From positions 1 to 64,000 of the forward strand of contig NZ_JAPZVN010000009.1 of NCBI RefSeq assembly GCF_027533845.1: DNA of 64,000 nt, read 5' to 3'. The position numbers and the translations under genes were made by a program. This DNA comes from Streptomyces sp. RPT161. Lineage in GTDB: Bacteria; Actinomycetota; Actinomycetes; Streptomycetales; Streptomycetaceae. This document shows positions 3,515-15,244 of the stretch, one piece after another; position 1 is the first letter of the stretch; each line of letters starts with the position of its first letter. The notes beneath the pieces are model-generated. The model ran no database searches. It was not told where the DNA came from and worked only from the letters and a program-made list of their open reading frames with translations.

Positions 3515-4672
3515 TCAGGACACGGGGTCCAGGAACTCGTCGAAGGCGTGGGGCAGTTGCTGCCACACGTCCCGGCCCGCCGCGTATTCGCTGTCGGTCA
3601 GCAGGCAGGAGTCGAGAAGTTCCAGCAGGCCGTCGCGGTCGAGGCCGGGTGAGGTGAACGTGAGGTGCTGGCAGCGGTCACCGTGCTGCGGGTGCCAGTC
3701 CAGCGAGGCGGCGACACGGCGCTCGGCCGGGACCATCTCCCAGGCCGCCTCGGGCAGCGCCGCCAGCCACGGTCCGGTCGACTCGACGCACAGGGCGCCG
3801 CCCGCCGCGTCCCAGGACAGCAGGGTGTCGGGGCGGTCGGCGAGCCAGAACCGGCCGCGGCTGCGCGCCGCCACACAGGCCAGGTCCTCCAGCGCGGCAT
3901 AGAGCCGCTGCGGGTGGAAGGGCCGGTCGCGGCGCCAGGCGAGGGTGGTCACCCCGTGGTCGTCGGCCTCCTGGGGCAGCAGTGCGCAGGACGGGTGCTG
4001 CCGGGCCGCGGCGGCGGCGAGGTCGAATCCGGTCAGCAGCTCCGGGCCGAGCTCGCCCCCGCCGACCTGGAAGCGCCGTGCGGTGGGGGTGAGTTGGGCC
4101 AGCAGTGCCTGGTCGGCGTCGTCCGCCGGTTCCTCTCCCTCGGACAGCGCGAGGACGGTGGGGTACTCGATCTGCCGGGCGAAGGTGTCGGCGATGGTGC
4201 GCTGGTCGGTGGGCGCGGCGGCCAGGCCGACCTCGGCGAGGTCGTCGCCGTTGGCGAGGTACGGCAGGACGAGGGCCGGGTCCACCGCGGTGGCCACGCC
4301 GGTCAGTTCCAGCGGGGCGCCCGCGGCGGCGATCACGGCGGCCATGGCCTGCGGTTCGACGGAGTCCCACAGTTCGACGACGGCCAGCCGGTACGCGCCG
4401 TCCTCCGCGAGTCGCAACAGTTCCGGGACCAGGTCCTCACGCAGCGCGCAGCAGGCGCAGTCGTTGACCAGCGGGGTGTGGCCGGCGCTGACCGGGCCGG
4501 TGATGTCCCGGACGGCGCGGTGCACCATGCCGTCCGACGCGGCGGACAGGTCGTGGTGCAGCACGACCGTACCGGGCACGGCGTGCAGGATGTCGCCGAT
4601 CGCCGCGCGGCGCGCGTCCGCGTGCAGCCCGCCGACGATCGCCACCGGCAGCCGACGATCGGCCGGGCTCAT
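3515..4672 (-). CDS. mrf: COG0523/CobW-like protein of the Mrf type (ribosome hibernation factor recruiter)
   Basis: 385 residues. It carries the CxCC metal motif of COG0523 (NDCACC, Cys at 72, 74, 75) and a CobW C-terminal-like domain ([16 protein letters not shown]). The pattern matches mycobacterial Mrf/Rv0106 proteins, which bring a protein-Y-type hibernation factor to cysteine-free ribosomes under zinc depletion. The N-terminal loop that should be a Walker A motif reads GGLHADARR, without GKT/S, so GTP use is doubtful from sequence. Its ATG overlaps the L31 stop, so the two are translationally coupled; S18 follows after 41 bases. No protein-Y gene is seen in this window. Confidence 0.85.
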
Positions 4673-4920
4673 CGCGCCCCCCGCCCGTAGCGCCGCTGGA
4701 ACAGCTCGACGCGGCCGGCGGTGTCCAGGACGCGCTGGGTTCCGGTGTAGAAGGGGTGACTGGCGGAGGAGACCTCGACATCGATGACGGGGTAGGTGTT
4801 GCCGTCCTCCCACTCGATGGTGCGGTCGCTGGTCATGGTCGAGCGGGTGAGGAAGGCGAAGTCGGCGGAGCGGTCGCGGAAGACGACGTGCCGGTACTCG
4901 GGGTGGATGCCGGACTTCAT
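4669..4920 (-). CDS. rpmE: 50S ribosomal protein L31 type B (cysteine-free)
   Basis: 83 residues: [25 protein letters not shown]... with the type-B ending [25 protein letters not shown]. The four zinc-binding cysteines of type A L31 are absent. The start has GAGAGGAGC upstream, inside the end of L33, and the stop overlaps the Mrf start. It replaces zinc-binding L31 when zinc is scarce (known for the family). Second gene of the Zur-box operon. Confidence 0.97.
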
Positions 4921-5111: not shown

Positions 5112-5126
5112 TGGTTTTCATTTTCA
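5112..5126 (-). promoter_or_regulatory. Zur-box-like operator upstream of L33-L31-Mrf-S18
   Basis: Minus-strand sequence TGAAAATGAAAACCA. Its left half matches the actinobacterial Zur consensus TGAAAATGATTTTCA exactly. It sits directly upstream of rpmG at core-promoter distance, on a gene set known to be Zur-regulated in Streptomyces and mycobacteria. Confidence 0.8.
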
Positions 5127-6824: not shown

Positions 6825-7325
6825 TCAGGCCCCTTCGGGGGCGGTGCTGTGGGGGTCGCGGTTGCGGGCTGGCCGACAGGGTGGCTCGCCCTGTTCGGCG
6901 GAGGGCAGGCATCGGGCGCAGATGCCGGTGAGTTCTACGGTGTGATGGACCGCGGCGAACCCCGCGTCCCCACCGACCCGGTCCGCCCATTCCTCCACCA
7001 CCTCGGAGGCCACCGGCTGGCTGCGCCCGCAACAGCGGCACATCAGGTAGTGCCGATGGCCGTCCGAGAGCCGCCGCCGGTACAGCCGCTCCCCCGCGTC
7101 ATCGCGGACCACGTCCACCCGCCCGGCCGACTCCAGGTCCCGTAGCGCACGGTAGACGGTGGTCAGCCCGACGCTGTTTCCGGCTGCGGCGAGCAGGGCG
7201 TGCAACTCCTGGGCGGAGACGAAGTCCTGGCATCCCGCGAGCACCCTCAGCACGGCGGTGCGCTGCCAGGTCGTACGCCCCCGCGCCTCCCCGCGCGGCG
7301 GCTTGCCGGTCGTCCGGCCGCCCAC
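6825..7325 (-). CDS. Fur-family repressor, Zur type
   Basis: 166 residues. Winged helix: TWQRTAVLRVLAGCQDFVSAQELHALLAAAGNSVGLTTVYRALRDLE. Metal and dimer domain: structural Cys4 site CRCCG (Cys 96 and 99) and CARC (136 and 139), HRHYL and VHHTVEL. Closest to Zur among Fur proteins. GTG at 7325 follows GAGGAGGTGAT. It is transcribed away from the PLP operon at 7523, and the shared spacer holds a Zur-box-like site, so autoregulation and control of that operon are likely. At the position where S. coelicolor Zur has YRRC (from memory), this protein has YRRR, so zinc sensing may differ. A canonical Zur may exist elsewhere. Confidence 0.85.
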   Translation of the reverse strand: MGGRTTGKPPRGEARGRTTWQRTAVLRVLAGCQDFVSAQELHALLAAAGNSVGLTTVYRALRDLESAGRVDVVRDDAGERLYRRRLSDGHRHYLMCRCCGRSQPVASEVVEEWADRVGGDAGFAAVHHTVELTGICARCLPSAEQGEPPCRPARNRDPHSTAPEGA

Positions 7326-7375: not shown

Positions 7376-7390
7376 TGAAAATGACTTCCA
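7376..7390 (+). promoter_or_regulatory. Zur-box-like operator between the Fur-family gene and the PLP operon
   Basis: TGAAAATGACTTCCA: the left half and centre are identical to the Zur consensus TGAAAATGATTTTCA, with mismatches in the right half. It lies 51 bases from the repressor start and 133 bases from the first biosynthetic start, in the divergent promoter. Confidence 0.75.
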
Positions 7391-7522
7391 TGTCCACGTA
7401 TCTTTTCCGGCCATTCCCACCACTGGGAAGGGGGCGTAAATAGCCTCGCGGGCGGAAATGGGTAGACCGAACAGTCGTTGGGTCACCGCTGGCCCAGCCG
7501 ATACCAGGGGAGGGAACCTCGG

Positions 7523-8992
7523 ATGGACGTCCCCTTGTACCTGGAGCCGAGGCTGGGCCCACGGCTGGCGTCGTTGGTACGGTCCGGCCCATTACTGCAC
7601 ACACTCGTCGGCGGCCTCGGCTCACCGCTCAACGTGGTCCTACCCCAGCAGATCACCGACAACCTGGCTCGCTTCCGCGGCGTGTACCGCGAGCACCGGC
7701 TGGGCGGCGAGGTCCTCTTCGCGCACAAGGCCAACCGTTCCAGCGCCCTGGTACGGCAACTCGCCGCCGCGGGCGGCGCCGTTGAGGTCGCGTCGCTGGG
7801 CGAACTCCAGCACGCGCTCGGCGCGGGATTCACACCCGATCGGATCATGGCCACCGGCCCGAAGAACCCGGAGTTCCTGTGGCTGGCCGCCCGCACCGGG
7901 GTCGGGGTGCACATCGACTCCCCCGCCGAACTCGACGAACTGACCGCACTGGTGAACCGGTTCCGGCTGCCCCGCGCCCGGATCCTGCTGAGGCTGTCGG
8001 GGTTCACGGCGCCCGGGATGAAGGTACTGACCCGGCAGAGCAGGTTCGGCTCACCGGTGGCGGAACTGGACGGGCTACTGAAGGTGGTCGAACGGCACGG
8101 CGACGCCGTGGAGTTGCTCGGCGTCGGCTACCACCTGGACACCACCAGCCTCAGCGAGAAGGCGGTGGCACTCGAAGGCTGCCTTCGGGCGATGGACCTG
8201 TGCCGGGCCCGAGGGCTGCAACCGCGGGCCATCGACGTCGGCGGCGGTTACGGCGTCAACTACCTCGACGACGGCGAGCAGTGGGACCGCTACACCACGG
8301 AGCTGACCAACGCGGTGCTGGGCAGGCGCCCGCCGCTCACCTGGCACCAGCACGGCTACGGACTGCGCAACGACTCCGGCACGCTGCGCGGCGCCCTCGG
8401 CCTCTACCCGGCCCATCGGCCGGTAGCCGGTGAGCGCTACCTCGACGCGCTGCTGTCGCACCAAGCCCCGTCGCTGGGCGGCCGGTTGGCCACGCTGCTC
8501 CTGGAGAGCCTGTACGACCTGTACACCGAACCCGGTCGGGCGCTGGCCGACCAGTGCGGGCTCACCCTCGCCCGGGTGCTGGAGGTGCGGCGCACGGAGT
8601 CGGGCGAGCACCTGGTACGGCTGGAGGCCAACGCGGACGACATCGGCCTGGAGGAACACGGCGTGCTGATGGACCCGCTGCTCATCCCGCGCGACAAGGG
8701 CCGAACCCCGGCCGACGCCGAGCCGTTGGGGGTCTACCTCACCGGGAACCTCTGCCTGGAGTCGGACATGGTCACCCGCAGGATGGTCTTCCTCCCGCGT
8801 CCGCCCGTCCCCGGTGATCTGCTGGGCTTCGCCAACACCGCCGGATACTGCATGGACTTCAGCGCCGACCACGCGCAACGGCAGCCCGTGGCGCGCAAGG
8901 TCGCCGCCTGGCAGGACGGGGACGGCTGGCGATGGTGCCTTGACGAGCAGTACTGGCCGATCACGAATCCCGGGGGCGCGCATGCGGTTTGA
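7523..8992 (+). CDS. Y4yA-family PLP-dependent decarboxylase-like enzyme
   Basis: 489 residues of the alanine-racemase-barrel/DapDC fold. Visible motifs are the PLP lysine in FAHKAN (K69), GYHLDT (about 202-207), the glycine-rich phosphate loop DVGGGYG (238-244), EPGRA (336-340) and a late NLCLESD resembling the CESxD element. Relatives decarboxylate basic amino acids or siderophore intermediates (SbnH in staphyloferrin B; Y4yA in Rhizobium NGR234). ATG at 7523 was chosen over a TTG at 7478 because GGGAGGGAA lies 8-9 bases upstream. It overlaps the next gene by 11 bases, implying coupling. Substrate unknown; role in a metallophore pathway inferred from the Zur box and neighbours. Confidence 0.85.
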   Translation: MDVPLYLEPRLGPRLASLVRSGPLLHTLVGGLGSPLNVVLPQQITDNLARFRGVYREHRLGGEVLFAHKANRSSALVRQLAAAGGAVEVASLGELQHALGAGFTPDRIMATGPKNPEFLWLAARTGVGVHIDSPAELDELTALVNRFRLPRARILLRLSGFTAPGMKVLTRQSRFGSPVAELDGLLKVVERHGDAVELLGVGYHLDTTSLSEKAVALEGCLRAMDLCRARGLQPRAIDVGGGYGVNYLDDGEQWDRYTTELTNAVLGRRPPLTWHQHGYGLRNDSGTLRGALGLYPAHRPVAGERYLDALLSHQAPSLGGRLATLLLESLYDLYTEPGRALADQCGLTLARVLEVRRTESGEHLVRLEANADDIGLEEHGVLMDPLLIPRDKGRTPADAEPLGVYLTGNLCLESDMVTRRMVFLPRPPVPGDLLGFANTAGYCMDFSADHAQRQPVARKVAAWQDGDGWRWCLDEQYWPITNPGGAHAV

Positions 8993-10301
8993 CAACATCA
9001 CCGAGGCCATCGGCAACACACCGCTGGTCCGCATCGACCCGGCCGTGCACGGCCTGCGCAACATCGACCTGTACGCGAAGCTGGAAATGCTCAACCCGTT
9101 CGGATCGGTCAAGGACCGGGCCGCCTGGAACATGGTGCGCCCCGGTCTGGACTCGGCGGTGGAAAACGGCCACACGGTGGTGGAACTGTCCAGCGGGAAC
9201 ACCGCCAAGGCGCTGGCCGTGATCGCGGGCATGCACGGGCTGTCGTTCAAGAGCATCACCAACCGGATGAAGATCCCCGAGGTCAGGGAACTGCTGCTGC
9301 TGCTGGGCGCGGAGATCGAGGAGCTACCGGGACAGACCGAATGCCTCGATCCCACCAACACCGCCGACCCGCTGACGCTCTTTCACCAGTCCCTCACCGA
9401 ACCGCAGGGCGCCTACCTGTACACCGACCAGTACTACAACGCCCGCAACACACAGGCACACGCCACGGGAACCGGTCCGGAGATCGTCAAGGACCTGGAC
9501 GGACGGGCCCCAGACTGGTTCATCGCCTGCGTGGGCACCGCGGGCTCGTCCAGCGGAGTGGCCAGGGTGCTGCGCGAACACGACCCGCGGGTACAGGTCA
9601 TCGGGCTGGTCGCGCACAAGTCGGACTTCATCCCGGGGATCCGCACCATTGACGAGGTACAGGAGGTCGGCCTGTTCGATCCGGCCACCTATGACGCCAT
9701 CGAGTCGGTGACCTCCGACGAGGCCATCGAGGGCATGCTGGCCCTGGCCCGCCGCTGCGGCCTGCTCGCCGGACCCACCGGCGGCGCCGCGTACTTCGGC
9801 GCGGTACGCCAACTGTGCGCTGTCGACAGCGAGTTGACCGAGCGCAGGTCGGCGGTGTTCATCGTGTGCGACCGAATAGAGAGCTATCTGAGCTACGTCC
9901 GGGAGCGGCGCCCCGAACTGCTGGGCCGCCCAGTGCGGAAGAACTCCCTCACCACCCTCTCCGACGCCGAAGTTCGCTCGGCCCCGGCCATCGACACCGA
10001 GGACGCCCTGAAGTGGATCGCCAGGGAGCGGCCACTCATCGTCGACCTGCGCAGCCCCTTCGCCTACACCGCCCTGCACATCGAGGGGTCCGTCAACATC
10101 GTGGACGAACTCTTCGGTGAACTCGTTCGCGGCGGAATGCCGTTCAGCAAGAGCCAGCCGGTGCTGCTGGCATGCCCGGTCGGTGAGCAGTCCGCCCGGT
10201 ACGCGGCGCTGCTGTCCCGGATGGGCCATCCCGATGTGCGCAGTCTGTCCGGTGGCATCATCGCCTGGCGGGACGCCGGCGCTCCCCTGGTACGGGAGTG
10301 A
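8982..10301 (+). CDS. Cysteine-synthase-like PLP enzyme fused to a rhodanese domain
   Basis: 439 residues. Residues 1 to about 320 are a fold-type II cysteine synthase domain: NPFGSVKDR (PLP lysine K44), SSGNTAKAL (about 70-78) and GPTGGAAYFGA. Residues from about 335 on form a rhodanese domain with IVDLRSPFAYTALHIEGSVNI and an active-site loop CPVGEQS (Cys 398). The fusion suggests that sulfur bound as persulfide on Cys398 is handed to an aminoacrylate on PLP; alternatively the PLP domain acts like SbnA, joining an amine to a serine derivative. Start overlaps the preceding gene. The desulfurase-like gene that follows 6 bases later is the natural sulfur donor. Confidence 0.9.
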   Translation: MRFDNITEAIGNTPLVRIDPAVHGLRNIDLYAKLEMLNPFGSVKDRAAWNMVRPGLDSAVENGHTVVELSSGNTAKALAVIAGMHGLSFKSITNRMKIPEVRELLLLLGAEIEELPGQTECLDPTNTADPLTLFHQSLTEPQGAYLYTDQYYNARNTQAHATGTGPEIVKDLDGRAPDWFIACVGTAGSSSGVARVLREHDPRVQVIGLVAHKSDFIPGIRTIDEVQEVGLFDPATYDAIESVTSDEAIEGMLALARRCGLLAGPTGGAAYFGAVRQLCAVDSELTERRSAVFIVCDRIESYLSYVRERRPELLGRPVRKNSLTTLSDAEVRSAPAIDTEDALKWIARERPLIVDLRSPFAYTALHIEGSVNIVDELFGELVRGGMPFSKSQPVLLACPVGEQSARYAALLSRMGHPDVRSLSGGIIAWRDAGAPLVRE

Positions 10302-10307
10302 GCCGGG

Positions 10308-11510
10308 GTGACCACCACGGACACCGACGCGCTGGAGGAGCTACGCGCCTGGCACACCGCGCTGCGCGCCCAGTTCCCCATCATCGCGGCCAACCCGGAG
10401 CTGACGTACCTGGACAGCGCCGCGACCACACAGAAACCGCGGGCGGTGCTGGACGCCGTACACGCCTACCTCACCACCAGCAACGCCAATGCCGCGAGGG
10501 GCAGTTACACCTGGGCCAACCAGACGACGGCACTGGTGCGGGCCACCCGGCAGCGCGTCAAGGAGTTCCTGCGCGATCCGGTGCCGGAGCGTTCCGAGGT
10601 GCACTTCACCAGTGGGGCGACCGAGGGGCTGCGCACCGTCGCGCGGGACTGGCTGACCGGCTTGCTCGCCGACGGTGACGAGATCGTCGTCCCGTTCGCC
10701 GACCACCAGGCCAACATCGCACCGTGGCTTGAGGTACGCGACCTGCTCGCCCGGCAGGGGGTGCGCGTCCTGGTGCGCCCCATGCCGTACCAGCCGGGTT
10801 CCGGTGACTACGAACCGGGTGCGCTGGCCGAACTGGTGGGCGAGCGCACCCGGTTCGTGGCGGTCACCCATGTACACCATGTGTACGGCGGCGACATGAA
10901 CGTGCACCGGATCCGCCAGGCGGTGGGGCCGGACGTACCGATCTGCCTGGACGCCGCGCAGAGCGTCGGCCATCTACCGGTCTCCATGGCCGAACTCGAT
11001 GTGGACTTCGCCGTGTTCTCCGGCCACAAGGCGCTCGCCCTGCCGGGCAGCGGCGCCGTGTGGGCCCGTAACGCTCGCGGGCCGCGCTTCGTACCGGGCG
11101 GCTGGGACGGCACCCCCAACACCAGCGGAATCGCCAGCCTGCGGGCGGCACTTGACTGGCTGGACTCCGCGGGCATCGACCGCGTCGAGCGATGGACCAC
11201 CGCGCTGGCCGCCCGGCTCACCGAGGGGCTGCGCCAACTCGACCCGTACGAAGTGCTGGGATGCCAGCGCAGCCTCGCCGCCCGGACCGACGTACAACAG
11301 CGGCGCGGCATAGTCACCTTCCGGCACCGCGACATCGACTCGGGTGATCTGGGATTCGTGTTGTTCAGTGAGGGGTTCATGGTGCGCAGCGACAGCCACT
11401 GCCAGGGCAGCGGCGGCGAGAAGCAGAACTCGGTGCGGGTGAGTCTGCACGTATACAACGCCCCGGAGGAGATTGACCGGCTTCTGAGGGTTTTGAGCAC
11501 GTTGGAGTGA
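10308..11510 (+). CDS. Class V aminotransferase-fold, SufS-like cysteine desulfurase/lyase
   Basis: 400 residues. N-terminal YLDSAATTQKP, PLP site DAAQS...DFAVFSGHKAL (K241), and a catalytic-loop cysteine in RSDSHCQGSGG (C365) at the place of the SufS RAGHHC motif. The final RVSLHVYN matches the SufS-type ending. Expected to strip sulfur from cysteine, or to act on a Cys/Ser-like intermediate. There are no SUF scaffold genes nearby, so a dedicated biosynthetic use is likelier than Fe-S assembly. GTG at 10308, 6 bases after the previous stop. Third gene of the Zur-box operon. Confidence 0.85.
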   Translation: MTTTDTDALEELRAWHTALRAQFPIIAANPELTYLDSAATTQKPRAVLDAVHAYLTTSNANAARGSYTWANQTTALVRATRQRVKEFLRDPVPERSEVHFTSGATEGLRTVARDWLTGLLADGDEIVVPFADHQANIAPWLEVRDLLARQGVRVLVRPMPYQPGSGDYEPGALAELVGERTRFVAVTHVHHVYGGDMNVHRIRQAVGPDVPICLDAAQSVGHLPVSMAELDVDFAVFSGHKALALPGSGAVWARNARGPRFVPGGWDGTPNTSGIASLRAALDWLDSAGIDRVERWTTALAARLTEGLRQLDPYEVLGCQRSLAARTDVQQRRGIVTFRHRDIDSGDLGFVLFSEGFMVRSDSHCQGSGGEKQNSVRVSLHVYNAPEEIDRLLRVLSTLE

Positions 11511-11522
11511 AGCACCCGCACT

Positions 11523-11537
11523 TGAAAATCGTTTCCA
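11523..11537 (+). promoter_or_regulatory. Zur-box-like operator before the methyltransferase gene
   Basis: TGAAAATCGTTTCCA, differing from the Zur consensus at the centre and one right-half base. A TAGGCT element about 4 bases downstream could be the -10 box, so repression by occlusion would fit. It begins 13 bases after the desulfurase stop, so the methyltransferase can have its own Zur-controlled promoter. Confidence 0.7.
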
Positions 11538-11596: not shown

Positions 11597-12355
11597 ATGG
11601 GACTGAGCATGGCAACGGCCGCGCTGTGGGTAGAGCGTTGGGAACGCCAGCAGCAGCGGTACGCCGTCGACCGCGAGGAGCGGTTCACGGTGATCGCGGA
11701 CATCGTTGAGCATGTCACCGCCGGCCAGCCGAAGCCGCTGATCGTGGACCTCGGCTGCGGCCCCGGATCGCTGGCCGTGCGACTGGCGGAGCGGCTGCCG
11801 CACGCGGACATCGTGGCCGTGGACCGCGACCCCCTCCTGCTGGAGCTGGGCAGAACCCACCATGCGGCCGCGGCCCGGTTCGTGGAGGCGACCATCGGAG
11901 CGGACGGCTGGCTCCAGGCGCTGGAGCTGGACCAGCCGCTGGATGCCGTCGTCTCCACCACCGCACTGCACTGCCTGCCGCCGGAGGTGCTGGGACGCGC
12001 CTACGAACAACTGGCCGCGCTGGTACGGCCCGGCGGGGTGCTGGTCAACAGCGACCAGTTCGGCCCGGGCGGCGACCCGGCGTCGCGGATCGCCGCCGAG
12101 GTGGGACGGCGCCGGGCCGAACGGCAGCGGCTGCGCGAACGTGAGGACTGGACGTCCTGGTGGGCGGCCGTGGCGGGCGAACCCGAGCTGGCCCAACTGC
12201 TCACCGACCAACCCAGGCCGTCCTGCGCACACCACAACCGCGACAACGGTCTGGACGTGTCCCACCACGTGGAACTGCTACGCCGGGTGGGATTCCGACA
12301 CGTCTGCCCGGTCTGGCAGTTCGGCACCGGTTGCGTTCTGGTAGCGGTGCGCTGA
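11597..12355 (+). CDS. Class I SAM-dependent methyltransferase
   Basis: 252 residues with SAM-binding motif I VDLGCGPGSLAVRLAERLP, motif II VAVDRDP and the post-motif LVRPGGVLVNSDQF. The start is uncertain: ATG 11597 has AGAGGTGG 11 bases upstream; ATG 11564 lies close to the predicted transcription start; ATG 11609 is also possible. The Zur-box-like site and its position behind the PLP/sulfur genes suggest that it methylates the product of that pathway (inference). TTALHCLPPEVL in the middle is typical of small-molecule methyltransferases. Confidence 0.8.
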   Translation: MGLSMATAALWVERWERQQQRYAVDREERFTVIADIVEHVTAGQPKPLIVDLGCGPGSLAVRLAERLPHADIVAVDRDPLLLELGRTHHAAAARFVEATIGADGWLQALELDQPLDAVVSTTALHCLPPEVLGRAYEQLAALVRPGGVLVNSDQFGPGGDPASRIAAEVGRRRAERQRLREREDWTSWWAAVAGEPELAQLLTDQPRPSCAHHNRDNGLDVSHHVELLRRVGFRHVCPVWQFGTGCVLVAVR

Positions 12356-13637: not shown

Positions 13638-13815
13638 TCAGCGATGCACGGCAAGCCCCCTAGGTTCGCAGATGCGAGGCCATTCCCCGCACCAACCAAA
13701 GATTCGCCAGGCTTCGCGGCCGAAAAGTCGGGCAGATTCGGTTCCCGATCTCCAGGGGCGGGCATCACGTTCTGCGAGCAGCCCGACTCACGCCCGTACG
13801 CCGAGGGGACCGCCG

Positions 13816-14277
13816 ATGAGCCGCATCACAGCACCGCCCCGGACGCTGCGCTTGTACGGTGACCTCGAACGCCCCGGCGACCTGACGGTGGCCCAACTGC
13901 GGCGGTGGCCGGCCCAGCGGGCCGAAGTCGTCTTCGACTGCGCGACCAACGGCGCCCAGCGGCATGTCTTCACCGGGCCGCTGCTGCGGGACGTGGCCAC
14001 CGAGGCCCACCCCACTTTCGACGTGCGCCGCCGCAAGGACCGTTCGCGGTTCCTGATCGCGGTGTTCGGTGGCGACGGCCATCGCTCGGTGCTGTCCTGG
14101 CCCGAGATCGACGCCGAGTTCGGCAACTCCCCCGTGCTGCTGGCCACCACCCTCGACGGGCGCCCGCTGGACGCGGACGGCAGCCAGCTGGTGGTACCCG
14201 GCGACGCCTGCGGGGCGCGCTACGTCAGCGCGATCACCAGCATCTGGGTCGGGGCCTACCTTCCGCCCGACCGCTAG
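13816..14277 (+). CDS. Small molybdopterin-dependent oxidoreductase (sulfite oxidase fold)
   Basis: 153 residues covering only the Moco-binding core of the sulfite oxidase/YedY fold. The conserved cysteine expected to bind Mo is in VVFDCATNGAQRHVFTGPLL (about residue 37), followed by HRSVLSWPEIDAEFGNSPVLLAT and LVVPGDACGARYVSAI. It lacks the dimerisation domain of full sulfite oxidases; no Tat signal is present. ATG at 13816. Downstream TOBE-domain genes tie the locus to molybdate. Electron partner and substrate unknown. Confidence 0.8.
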   Translation: MSRITAPPRTLRLYGDLERPGDLTVAQLRRWPAQRAEVVFDCATNGAQRHVFTGPLLRDVATEAHPTFDVRRRKDRSRFLIAVFGGDGHRSVLSWPEIDAEFGNSPVLLATTLDGRPLDADGSQLVVPGDACGARYVSAITSIWVGAYLPPDR

Positions 14278-14298
14278 GCGGGCGACCGCGGCGTCCCG

Positions 14299-14718
14299 TC
14301 AGGCGGCGGCGAGCGCGATCTCCGTCGACTTGATCAGCGCGACCACCGGGGAACCCGCGGCCAACCGGAGTTCCTCGACGGCGTCCTTGGTGACAGCGGC
14401 GGTCAACTCCCCGCCCTCCACGGCCACTTTGACCGTCGCCATGGCTTCACCGGTGGCCACCGCCGAGACCGTGCCGGGGATCTGGTTGCGGATGCTGACC
14501 CCGGTCACCGGGCCGGTGGCCAACGCCACCTCGGTGGACTTGACCAGGGCGCGCACCGCACTGCCCTCGGCGATCCCGAGGTCTCTGACCGCCTCCAGCG
14601 TCACCGCGGCGGTGATCTGCTGACCACCGGCCAGTCGAGCCTTCACCGTGGCCATGACCGTGCCAGGGGTGACCGATACGACAGTACCGGGAAGCTGGTT
14701 GCGCATGCTCAGACTCAT
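14299..14718 (-). CDS. Di-TOBE molybdate-binding protein (molbindin)
   Basis: 139 residues made of two tandem Mop/TOBE units: RNQLPGTVVSVTPGTVMATV...ALVKSTEVALA and RNQIPGTVSAVATGEAMATV...ALIKSTEIALA. This is the ModG-type arrangement for cytosolic molybdate storage or homeostasis. ATG at 14718 follows GAGGTGG. Convergent with the molybdopterin oxidoreductase gene and divergent from the HTH-TOBE regulator. Confidence 0.9.
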   Translation of the reverse strand: MSLSMRNQLPGTVVSVTPGTVMATVKARLAGGQQITAAVTLEAVRDLGIAEGSAVRALVKSTEVALATGPVTGVSIRNQIPGTVSAVATGEAMATVKVAVEGGELTAAVTKDAVEELRLAAGSPVVALIKSTEIALAAA

Positions 14719-14851
14719 GGAACGCCACCTCGGGCCCTTCGCGCGGAATATCCCGTTTTCCGGATGTGCCACAGACACAGTAGCCAGCACTGGCCGTCGA
14801 TGATCGCGACCCGTCGCAAACGCCGGACAAAGGGCCACTATCGTGAGGCAC

Positions 14852-15244
14852 ATGCAGTCCTACACGATCGGCCAGGCGGCGCGGCTACTCGGCGTCAGTC
14901 CGGACACCGCCCGCCGCTGGGCGGACGGCGGCCGTATCCGCACGCACCGCGACGAGGCCGGTCGCCGTCTCATCGACGGCCGGGACCTGGCCGCGTTCTC
15001 CGTGGAACTGGCGCAGAGCGCGGGGGGCGAGGAGGAGGCCTCGTACACCACGGCCCGCAACGCCTTCCCCGGTATCGTCACCGCGGTCAAGCTGGGCGAT
15101 GTCGCCGCCCAGGTGGAGATCCAGGCCGGACCGCACCGGCTGGTCTCGCTGCTCACCCGGGAGGCCGTCGAGGAACTCGGACTGGAGGTCGGGGTACAGG
15201 CCACCGCCCGGGTGAAGTCGACCAACGTCCACATCGACCGCTGA
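14852..15244 (+). CDS. HTH (MerR/excisionase-type) regulator with TOBE domain
   Basis: 130 residues: a MerR-like helix-turn-helix (YTIGQAARLLGVSPDTARRWADGGRIRTHRDEAGRRLI, residues 4-40) and a C-terminal Mop/TOBE unit (ARNAFPGIVTAVKLGDVAAQVEIQAG...ARVKSTNVHID). Such proteins are molybdate-responsive regulators analogous to ModE. It is divergent from the molbindin gene, so the spacer 14719-14851 probably holds its operator. No modABC transporter is in the window. Confidence 0.9.
   Translation: MQSYTIGQAARLLGVSPDTARRWADGGRIRTHRDEAGRRLIDGRDLAAFSVELAQSAGGEEEASYTTARNAFPGIVTAVKLGDVAAQVEIQAGPHRLVSLLTREAVEELGLEVGVQATARVKSTNVHIDR

Follow-up and report, generated by a model that had tools for sequence, protein, structure and literature searches.

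Among described enzymes, those closest in architecture to the protein considered here are fungal. In the available sections of PMC12751119, aspergillomarasmine A (AMA) synthase joins O-phosphoserine to L-Asp, Fda4 of Fusarium poae, which is pyridoxal 5'-phosphate (PLP) dependent and has a rhodanese-like domain, couples O-phosphoserine with L-Ala, and the marasmins are metal chelators. Among actinobacteria, the ethylenediamine disuccinate (EDDS) genes of Amycolatopsis japonicum are presented, in the available sections of PMC4993170 and PMC9252823, as Zur controlled and as encoding a route outside the nonribosomal peptide synthetase (NRPS) and NRPS-independent siderophore (NIS) systems. We analyzed a stretch of 64,000 nucleotides from Streptomyces sp. 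RPT161 (contig NZ_JAPZVN010000009.1, positions 1 to 64,000; here called the window), in which a gene for a PALP domain fused to a C-terminal rhodanese domain lies between genes for a Y4yA-type PLP decarboxylase-like protein and a SufS-like cysteine desulfurase (Table 1). We suggest, with a confidence a little short of even, that these genes form an operon under Zur control for making a small metabolite that contains sulfur and probably binds metal.

The PALP domain of the fusion spans residues 6 to 297 (Pfam PF00291; E = 4.6e-53; 180.9 bits against a cut-off of 35), and the solved chain nearest to its rhodanese domain is 6mxv. An earlier, sequence-only reading had placed a PLP lysine (K44) and an intact rhodanese cysteine (Cys398, in CPVGEQS) in this single chain, and translation, Pfam, and conservation bear this out. 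It had also held that loss of the cysteine from homologues would undo its proposal; C398 is present in 146/146 type I copies (those of the kind found in the window) and 32/32 of the more divergent type II copies that cover the site, and K44 in 147/147 and 32/32, respectively, these being counts of copies, not of independent species, across 180 loci of which three partial ones miss the K44 or C398 site and into which some genomes enter twice. Both residues are identical in all 83 aligned type I copies (the window's copy counted), and C398 was invariant in a first alignment of 28 fusion sequences, one of them partial. The cysteine opens a six-residue loop, CPVGE[QK]S, as in sulfurtransferases, and G72 and N73 of the SGN substrate loop are kept in 83/83 type I copies, as befits a fold type II PALP enzyme. 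The name "cysteine synthase" given in that reading is not borne out by curated scores: the fusion scores 181 bits against a cut-off of 344 for the NCBIfam cysKM model and lies far under the cut-offs of the CysM and CysK models. Nor does it reach the cut-off of the SbnA model (148 bits against 350). R221 sits in a PGIR motif common to E. coli CysM; in M. tuberculosis CysM, the corresponding Arg recognizes phosphoserine. Cysteines 121, 259, and 296 are also invariant in the 83 type I copies, C121 falling in a stretch absent from other aligned PALP enzymes and being Cys in two aligned type II sequences too. In a tree, the PALP domain split off on a long branch, the placement of which among SbnA-like enzymes and others was unsupported (0.169), so no such label was adopted.

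A structure model of the fusion (monomer; 48 sequences; mean predicted local distance difference test score, 81.8; predicted template modeling score, 0.77) found AMA synthase as its top Foldseek match, and the PDB calls the AMA synthase chains "Rhodanese domain-containing protein" (8h4h, 8h4q). AMA synthase is also the top VIA row (Z = 31.9; 412 residues across positions 1 to 438), with a root mean square deviation of 20 Å, so the domains agree singly and not in their arrangement; SbnA (Z = 31.6) and M. tuberculosis CysM fall within 0.5 Z of it, at about 3 Å over the PALP part.

The partner enzymes look active, judging from their conserved residues. The claim that a SufS-like gene adjoins the fusion holds throughout the type I set, where the gene follows the fusion in 82/82 loci. 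Its product retains H133, D215, Q218, and K241 in 81/81 aligned sequences and C365 and R377 in 80/81 (one gap), thus keeping the PLP Lys, catalytic Cys, and substrate Arg of a SufS enzyme, and these residues align with the active-site residues of E. coli SufS. The best NCBIfam model is the SufS family (254 bits, under the cut-off of 475). The protein is without about 24 residues present in E. coli SufS ahead of the GTPN motif, part of which type II retains. The decarboxylase-like protein, whose plasmid-borne relatives are annotated as the Y4yA family, keeps K84 in 79/82 sequences (three gaps) and C426 in 80/82 (two gaps); these align with E. coli LysA, and the PLP Lys and catalytic Cys region are those of a fold type III (LysA/ODC-like, Y4yA) decarboxylase.

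The best evidence that SufS loads the rhodanese domain is that the two are present together and absent together. A SufS-like gene was found in every fusion locus checked (82/82 type I loci, 17/17 type II loci, and 6/6 further type I loci). Y4yA relatives also occur in 182 plasmid records, of which we read seven loci (Nitratireductor, Aureimonas, Mycobacterium avium, Sulfitobacter, Rhizobium, Bradyrhizobium, and M. intracellulare); each has a PALP gene close by, in no case fused to a rhodanese domain. Across these 15- to 17-kb stretches, tblastn (E up to 1e-3) found no SufS, although a distant SufS is possible, and rhodanese signals amounted to chance-like traces (best E = 0.024), none of them at the PALP gene. 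A persulfide relay from SufS to rhodanese is therefore likely, given this joint distribution, the conserved C398, and the adjacent, intact SufS-like gene. Three of the seven rhodanese-free loci adjoin siderophore or iron transport genes. Three of the plasmid clusters (L141, L142, and L144) combine ornithine cyclodeaminase (OCD), Y4yA, and PALP genes, with a MATE efflux gene in L141 and L142, and look like pathways to EDDS- or 2,3-diaminopropionate (Dap)-type chelators.

The operon appears to be under the control of Zur, that is, apparently on when zinc runs out. With the S. coelicolor Zur motif as it appears in the available text of PMC5472717, and up to 2 mismatches allowed, 18 occurrences were found upstream of Y4yA in 16/78 loci, where the remaining sequence of these loci would predict 3.5. 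A refined palindrome, TGRNAAYSRTTNYCA, was derived from the gap between the SufS-like and methyltransferase genes; exact copies lie within 200 bp past the SufS stop in 45/80 loci, compared with 0.8% of 4,100 random windows, a count that is partly circular because the palindrome came from the operon's own gap. Exact copies number 69 in 1.62 Mb, against none (nine times) or one (once) in ten Markov nulls. Outside the gap and Y4yA upstream classes there are 26, of which 8 precede a methyltransferase gene, 6 a zinc-cluster gene, and 2 an ArsR-type gene, the other 10 being without such a label. Since the palindrome came from operon gaps, the genome from which the window derives (7.69 Mb) is the better test, and it holds seven exact copies and none of a reversed control. 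One is the site in the gap of the window's own operon. Four others fall at two loci of the zinc uptake type: two of them stand some 40 and 80 bp ahead of a ZnuA-like gene (L202) that precedes an ABC-3 pair, and two are located roughly 2 kb to the 5' side of another ABC-3 pair, which is accompanied by a Fur gene. One copy is 4 to 5 kb from Fur and CobW genes, and near the last (C52:651263-651277; L203) no zinc gene is evident up to 1.5 kb away. In five of six further type I loci from the genus that bears type II copies, a site with at most 1 mismatch stands shortly ahead of Y4yA. The type I operon thus carries a Zur-like box at its promoter, as members of a Zur regulon do, and the boxes, new here, are a strong regulatory signal. 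Zinc genes (CobW, ZnuA- or ZnuB-like, Fur, ribosomal paralogues, or a His-rich protein, cluster names that are our reading of the sequences) occur in 28/82 loci, in stretches of up to 21 kb, a figure whose background consists of the CobW (6 matches), ABC-3 (5 matches), and FUR families counted in the window's genome and which comes with no exact p-value. A provisional Zur consensus (at most 4 mismatches; 13/80 loci against 0.3% of composition shuffles) was superseded by the published motif and then by the refined palindrome.

The type I set comprises 80 loci, taken in a one-genome-per-species scan from at least 581 candidates encoding a relative, and two Streptomyces plasmid records; the scanned loci come from Streptomyces, Nocardiopsis, Micromonospora, Actinoplanes, Nocardia, Hoyosella, Actinokineospora, and others. 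The order Y4yA-type decarboxylase, fusion, and SufS-like gene is intact in all 82. S. viridochromogenes NRRL 3413 (L060) and S. cyaneochromogenes MK-45 (L059) are among the carriers of the operon. The window's methyltransferase was matched in 72/82, a few of the matches lying several kilobases off or upstream and those of Actinoplanes and its relatives being just 25 to 35% identical. With the window's genome counted each time, the fusion was matched in 28/150 sampled genomes of the Streptomycetaceae (E up to 1e-90), 26/99 of the order, and 6/396 of the phylum (E up to 1e-45). In another actinobacterial genus, all 118 sampled genomes gave a match (E up to 1e-45), which in one case was divided between two contigs; this genus is probably Nocardia, because the named Nocardia loci L112, L115, and L121 bear type I. 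Nearly all 118 genomes carry the type II copy, 45 to 52% identical to the window's, and 17 of them additionally a type I copy (69 to 73% identical). All 17 type II loci read have the string SufS-like gene, gene for a protein with a C-terminal heavy-metal-associated (HMA) domain, Y4yA, and fusion, and all six type I loci read from this genus have the Streptomyces order. Examples of type II operons are L136:2210-7540 and L137:8303-13644, each a divergent operon whose HMA-domain protein contains MTCKHC; the N-terminal part of that protein matched no Pfam family and, by sequence, no solved structure. In L106, L111, L115, and L126, the region downstream of the SufS-like gene includes an ATP-grasp gene (by Pfam in L115); three of these loci are without a methyltransferase match, a possible case of product variation. 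Near the operon, 14/82 loci (e.g., L122:8438-9001) also have a gene for a GNAT-type acetyltransferase. No description of the operon, or of any bacterial PALP-rhodanese enzyme, was found in the open-access literature, subscription papers being mostly outside the search.

These observations can be assembled into a pathway. The SufS-like enzyme would take sulfur from cysteine as a persulfide on Cys365, from which it would move to Cys398 of the fused rhodanese domain; at PLP-K44, the PALP domain would convert its substrate, most likely O-phosphoserine or a relative, to an aminoacrylate and from there to a β-substituted alanine; the Y4yA-type enzyme would then strip the α-carboxylate to leave an X-CH2-CH2-NH2 unit, and the methyltransferase, or in some lineages another enzyme, would complete the product. 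In the presence of zinc, Zur would switch the genes off. β-Substitution at PLP-K44 fed by the C365-to-C398 relay is plausible, the sulfur presumably ending up in the product, and the choice of O-phosphoserine as the probable substrate is helped by AMA synthase, Fda4, and SbnA. That the product binds metal is our best guess, because of the Zur-like boxes and the rhodanese-free relatives. The earlier suggestion that SufS charges the rhodanese domain therefore stands as a likely relay, but plain cysteine as the product of the PALP domain, which that suggestion implied, is unlikely. SufS spends cysteine as its sulfur source, so the remaking of cysteine would be futile, and the sulfur should therefore go either to a different place in the product or into a substrate that is neither plain O-acetylserine nor plain O-phosphoserine. 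A more specific proposal, which we put forward as doubtful, is that a C-S bond is made by direct transfer from the desulfurase-charged rhodanese persulfide to the PLP aminoacrylate and that decarboxylation comes next, the two steps forming the heart of a route, controlled by Zur, to a new class of thiol zincophores; if true, this would be the sulfur counterpart of the amine chemistry of AMA, EDDS, and staphyloferrin B.

A number of observations weigh against the biosynthetic operon that we favor. On the side of zinc, 62/78 loci have no published-motif site (at most 2 mismatches) upstream of Y4yA, 30/80 have no refined-palindrome site (at most 1 mismatch) in the 200 bp past the SufS stop, the circularity noted above weakens the count in the gap, and 54/82 have no recognized zinc gene nearby. 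The 17 type II loci yielded two sites in all (at most 1 mismatch), both kilobases off the operon, and thus no box beside it. No transporter common to all 82 loci was found, Znu-type genes being near some. On the side of sulfur, the futility of a cysteine-to-cysteine cycle means that some other acceptor is required, and the architectural relatives AMA synthase and Fda4, as far as the available sections of PMC12751119 go, use amines. This last point makes addition of an amine a real rival. The sequence-only reading had itself conceded that an amine nucleophile would defeat its sulfur transfer, and since both relatives form C-N bonds the possibility is a live one. The PALP domain would then join O-phosphoserine to the nitrogen of an amino acid, Y4yA would decarboxylate the conjugate to an EDDS- or AMA-like aminopolycarboxylate zincophore, and the rhodanese domain and SufS would thiolate elsewhere or serve otherwise. 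Its appeal is that the top Foldseek match is itself a PALP-rhodanese enzyme, that Fda4 condenses O-phosphoserine with L-Ala (PMC12751119, in part), that Y4yA-PALP pairs without sulfur genes stand in siderophore-type loci, and that actinobacteria make such zincophores, as Zur-controlled EDDS shows (PMC4993170 and PMC9252823, in part). By itself, however, amine addition leaves unexplained the conservation and joint absence of C398 and an intact SufS, and no OCD-like or ParB-type (SbnI-like) gene was recognized in the type I operon, unlike in several of its cousins; we rate it possible and still doubtful.

Two further explanations fare worse. Zur regulons include zinc-free replacements, such as ribosomal paralogues, one of which (L31) lies in the window, and SufU and the enzymes of mycothiol are zinc dependent; the operon might therefore be a stand-in during zinc starvation, with Zn-SufU or mycothiol enzymes giving way to a desulfurase-rhodanese route that needs no zinc or to a different small thiol, and the residues missing from the SufS-like protein would suit a different acceptor. 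This leaves the decarboxylase and methyltransferase unexplained and sits poorly with type II copies that have no Zur box, and we consider it improbable. Less probable still is that a persulfide and O-acetyl- or O-phosphoserine are used to make cysteine, with free sulfide bypassed. Among solved proteins CysM is closest in sequence, and the sulfur genes adjoin, but the cycle would bring no gain, 17 further PALP-family matches occur in the genome, the fusion falls well below every cysteine synthase cut-off, and the decarboxylase and Zur-like boxes would have no explanation. A thiocarboxylate sulfur carrier, a route known from gene neighborhoods (PMC1779556, in part), was set aside when no such gene was recognized among those of the operon, although no dedicated search was made. 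We see a good case for the sulfur relay.

TABLE 1 Features of the operon and its zinc-related surroundings in the window (window coordinates)
Feature	Position	Strand	Details
PALP-rhodanese fusion gene	8982..10301	+	439 aa; translation free of internal stops
PLP lysine K44 of fusion	codon 9111-9113	+	within NPFGSVKDR
Rhodanese C398 of fusion	codon 10173-10175	+	within CPVGEQS
Rhodanese domain of fusion	9996..10274	+	residues 339-431; Pfam E 8.2e-16
Y4yA-type PLP decarboxylase-like gene	7478..8992	+	Orn_Arg_deC_N E 8.1e-26; likely start ATG at 7523
SufS-like cysteine desulfurase gene	10308..11510	+	Aminotran_5 E 4.4e-73; K241, C365
Methyltransferase gene	11597..12355	+	Methyltransf_25 E 1.1e-14; open reading frame opens at 11507
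Zur-like palindrome TGAAAATCGTTTCCA	11523..11537	.	between SufS-like and methyltransferase genes
Zur-like box TGAAAATGACTTCCA	7376..7390	.	upstream of decarboxylase gene; 2 mismatches to published motif, 1 to refined palindrome
Weak Zur-like site TGGTTTTCATTTTCA	5112..5126	.	2 mismatches; upstream of L31 and CobW-type genes
Fur-family regulator	6825..7325	-	FUR E 2.9e-20; divergent from operon
Ribosomal protein L31, no cysteine (zinc-free type)	4669..4920	-	PF01197 E 3e-27
CobW-type GTPase	3515..4813	-	nearest NCBIfam models MRF and ZigA, both under cut-off

The start of the methyltransferase gene given in Table 1 is the probable one, because most relatives show homology only from about residue 31 of the longer frame onward. 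Downstream of the zinc region, positions 13696-15244 of the window hold a molybdopterin-binding-type gene along with two genes for TOBE domains, of which one also has a helix-turn-helix of the MerR type.

A defined operon that is this widespread offers a direct test bed for the transfer of protein-bound sulfur into a β-substitution enzyme and a candidate new metabolite made under zinc shortage. The purpose of the rhodanese domain in the fungal relatives also becomes a comparative question, because in the bacterial loci read the domain is present where the desulfurase is present and missing where it is missing.

Set beside known systems, the locus combines familiar parts. The PALP-rhodanese architecture is not new, because AMA synthase and Fda4 have it: in both, as in the fusion, a PALP domain is followed by a rhodanese-type domain, O-phosphoserine chemistry being theirs, but these enzymes are fungal and use amine nucleophiles, and the available sections of PMC12751119 mention no desulfurase partner. 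SbnA of staphyloferrin B biosynthesis and SbnA-like enzymes share the PALP domain and a close fold, and SbnA serves metallophore supply, but it is without a rhodanese domain. So is CysM, the E. coli, Salmonella, and M. tuberculosis enzymes being the nearest solved relatives by sequence (30 to 32% identity); the fusion has SGNTAK where CysM has SGNTG, as well as the additional stretch around Cys121. The Y4yA-PALP modules of rhizobia, Aureimonas, and mycobacterial plasmids pair a decarboxylase with a PALP enzyme in the same cluster, as the operon does, but instead of rhodanese and SufS they have opine dehydrogenase, IucA/IucC, OCD, or MATE genes. EDDS holds no sulfur; its Zur-controlled genes are, like the operon, actinobacterial, a likeness at the level of description. 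The operon is best read as a Zur-controlled variant of the metallophore-type module for O-phosphoserine substitution and decarboxylation, to which a sulfur relay has been added.

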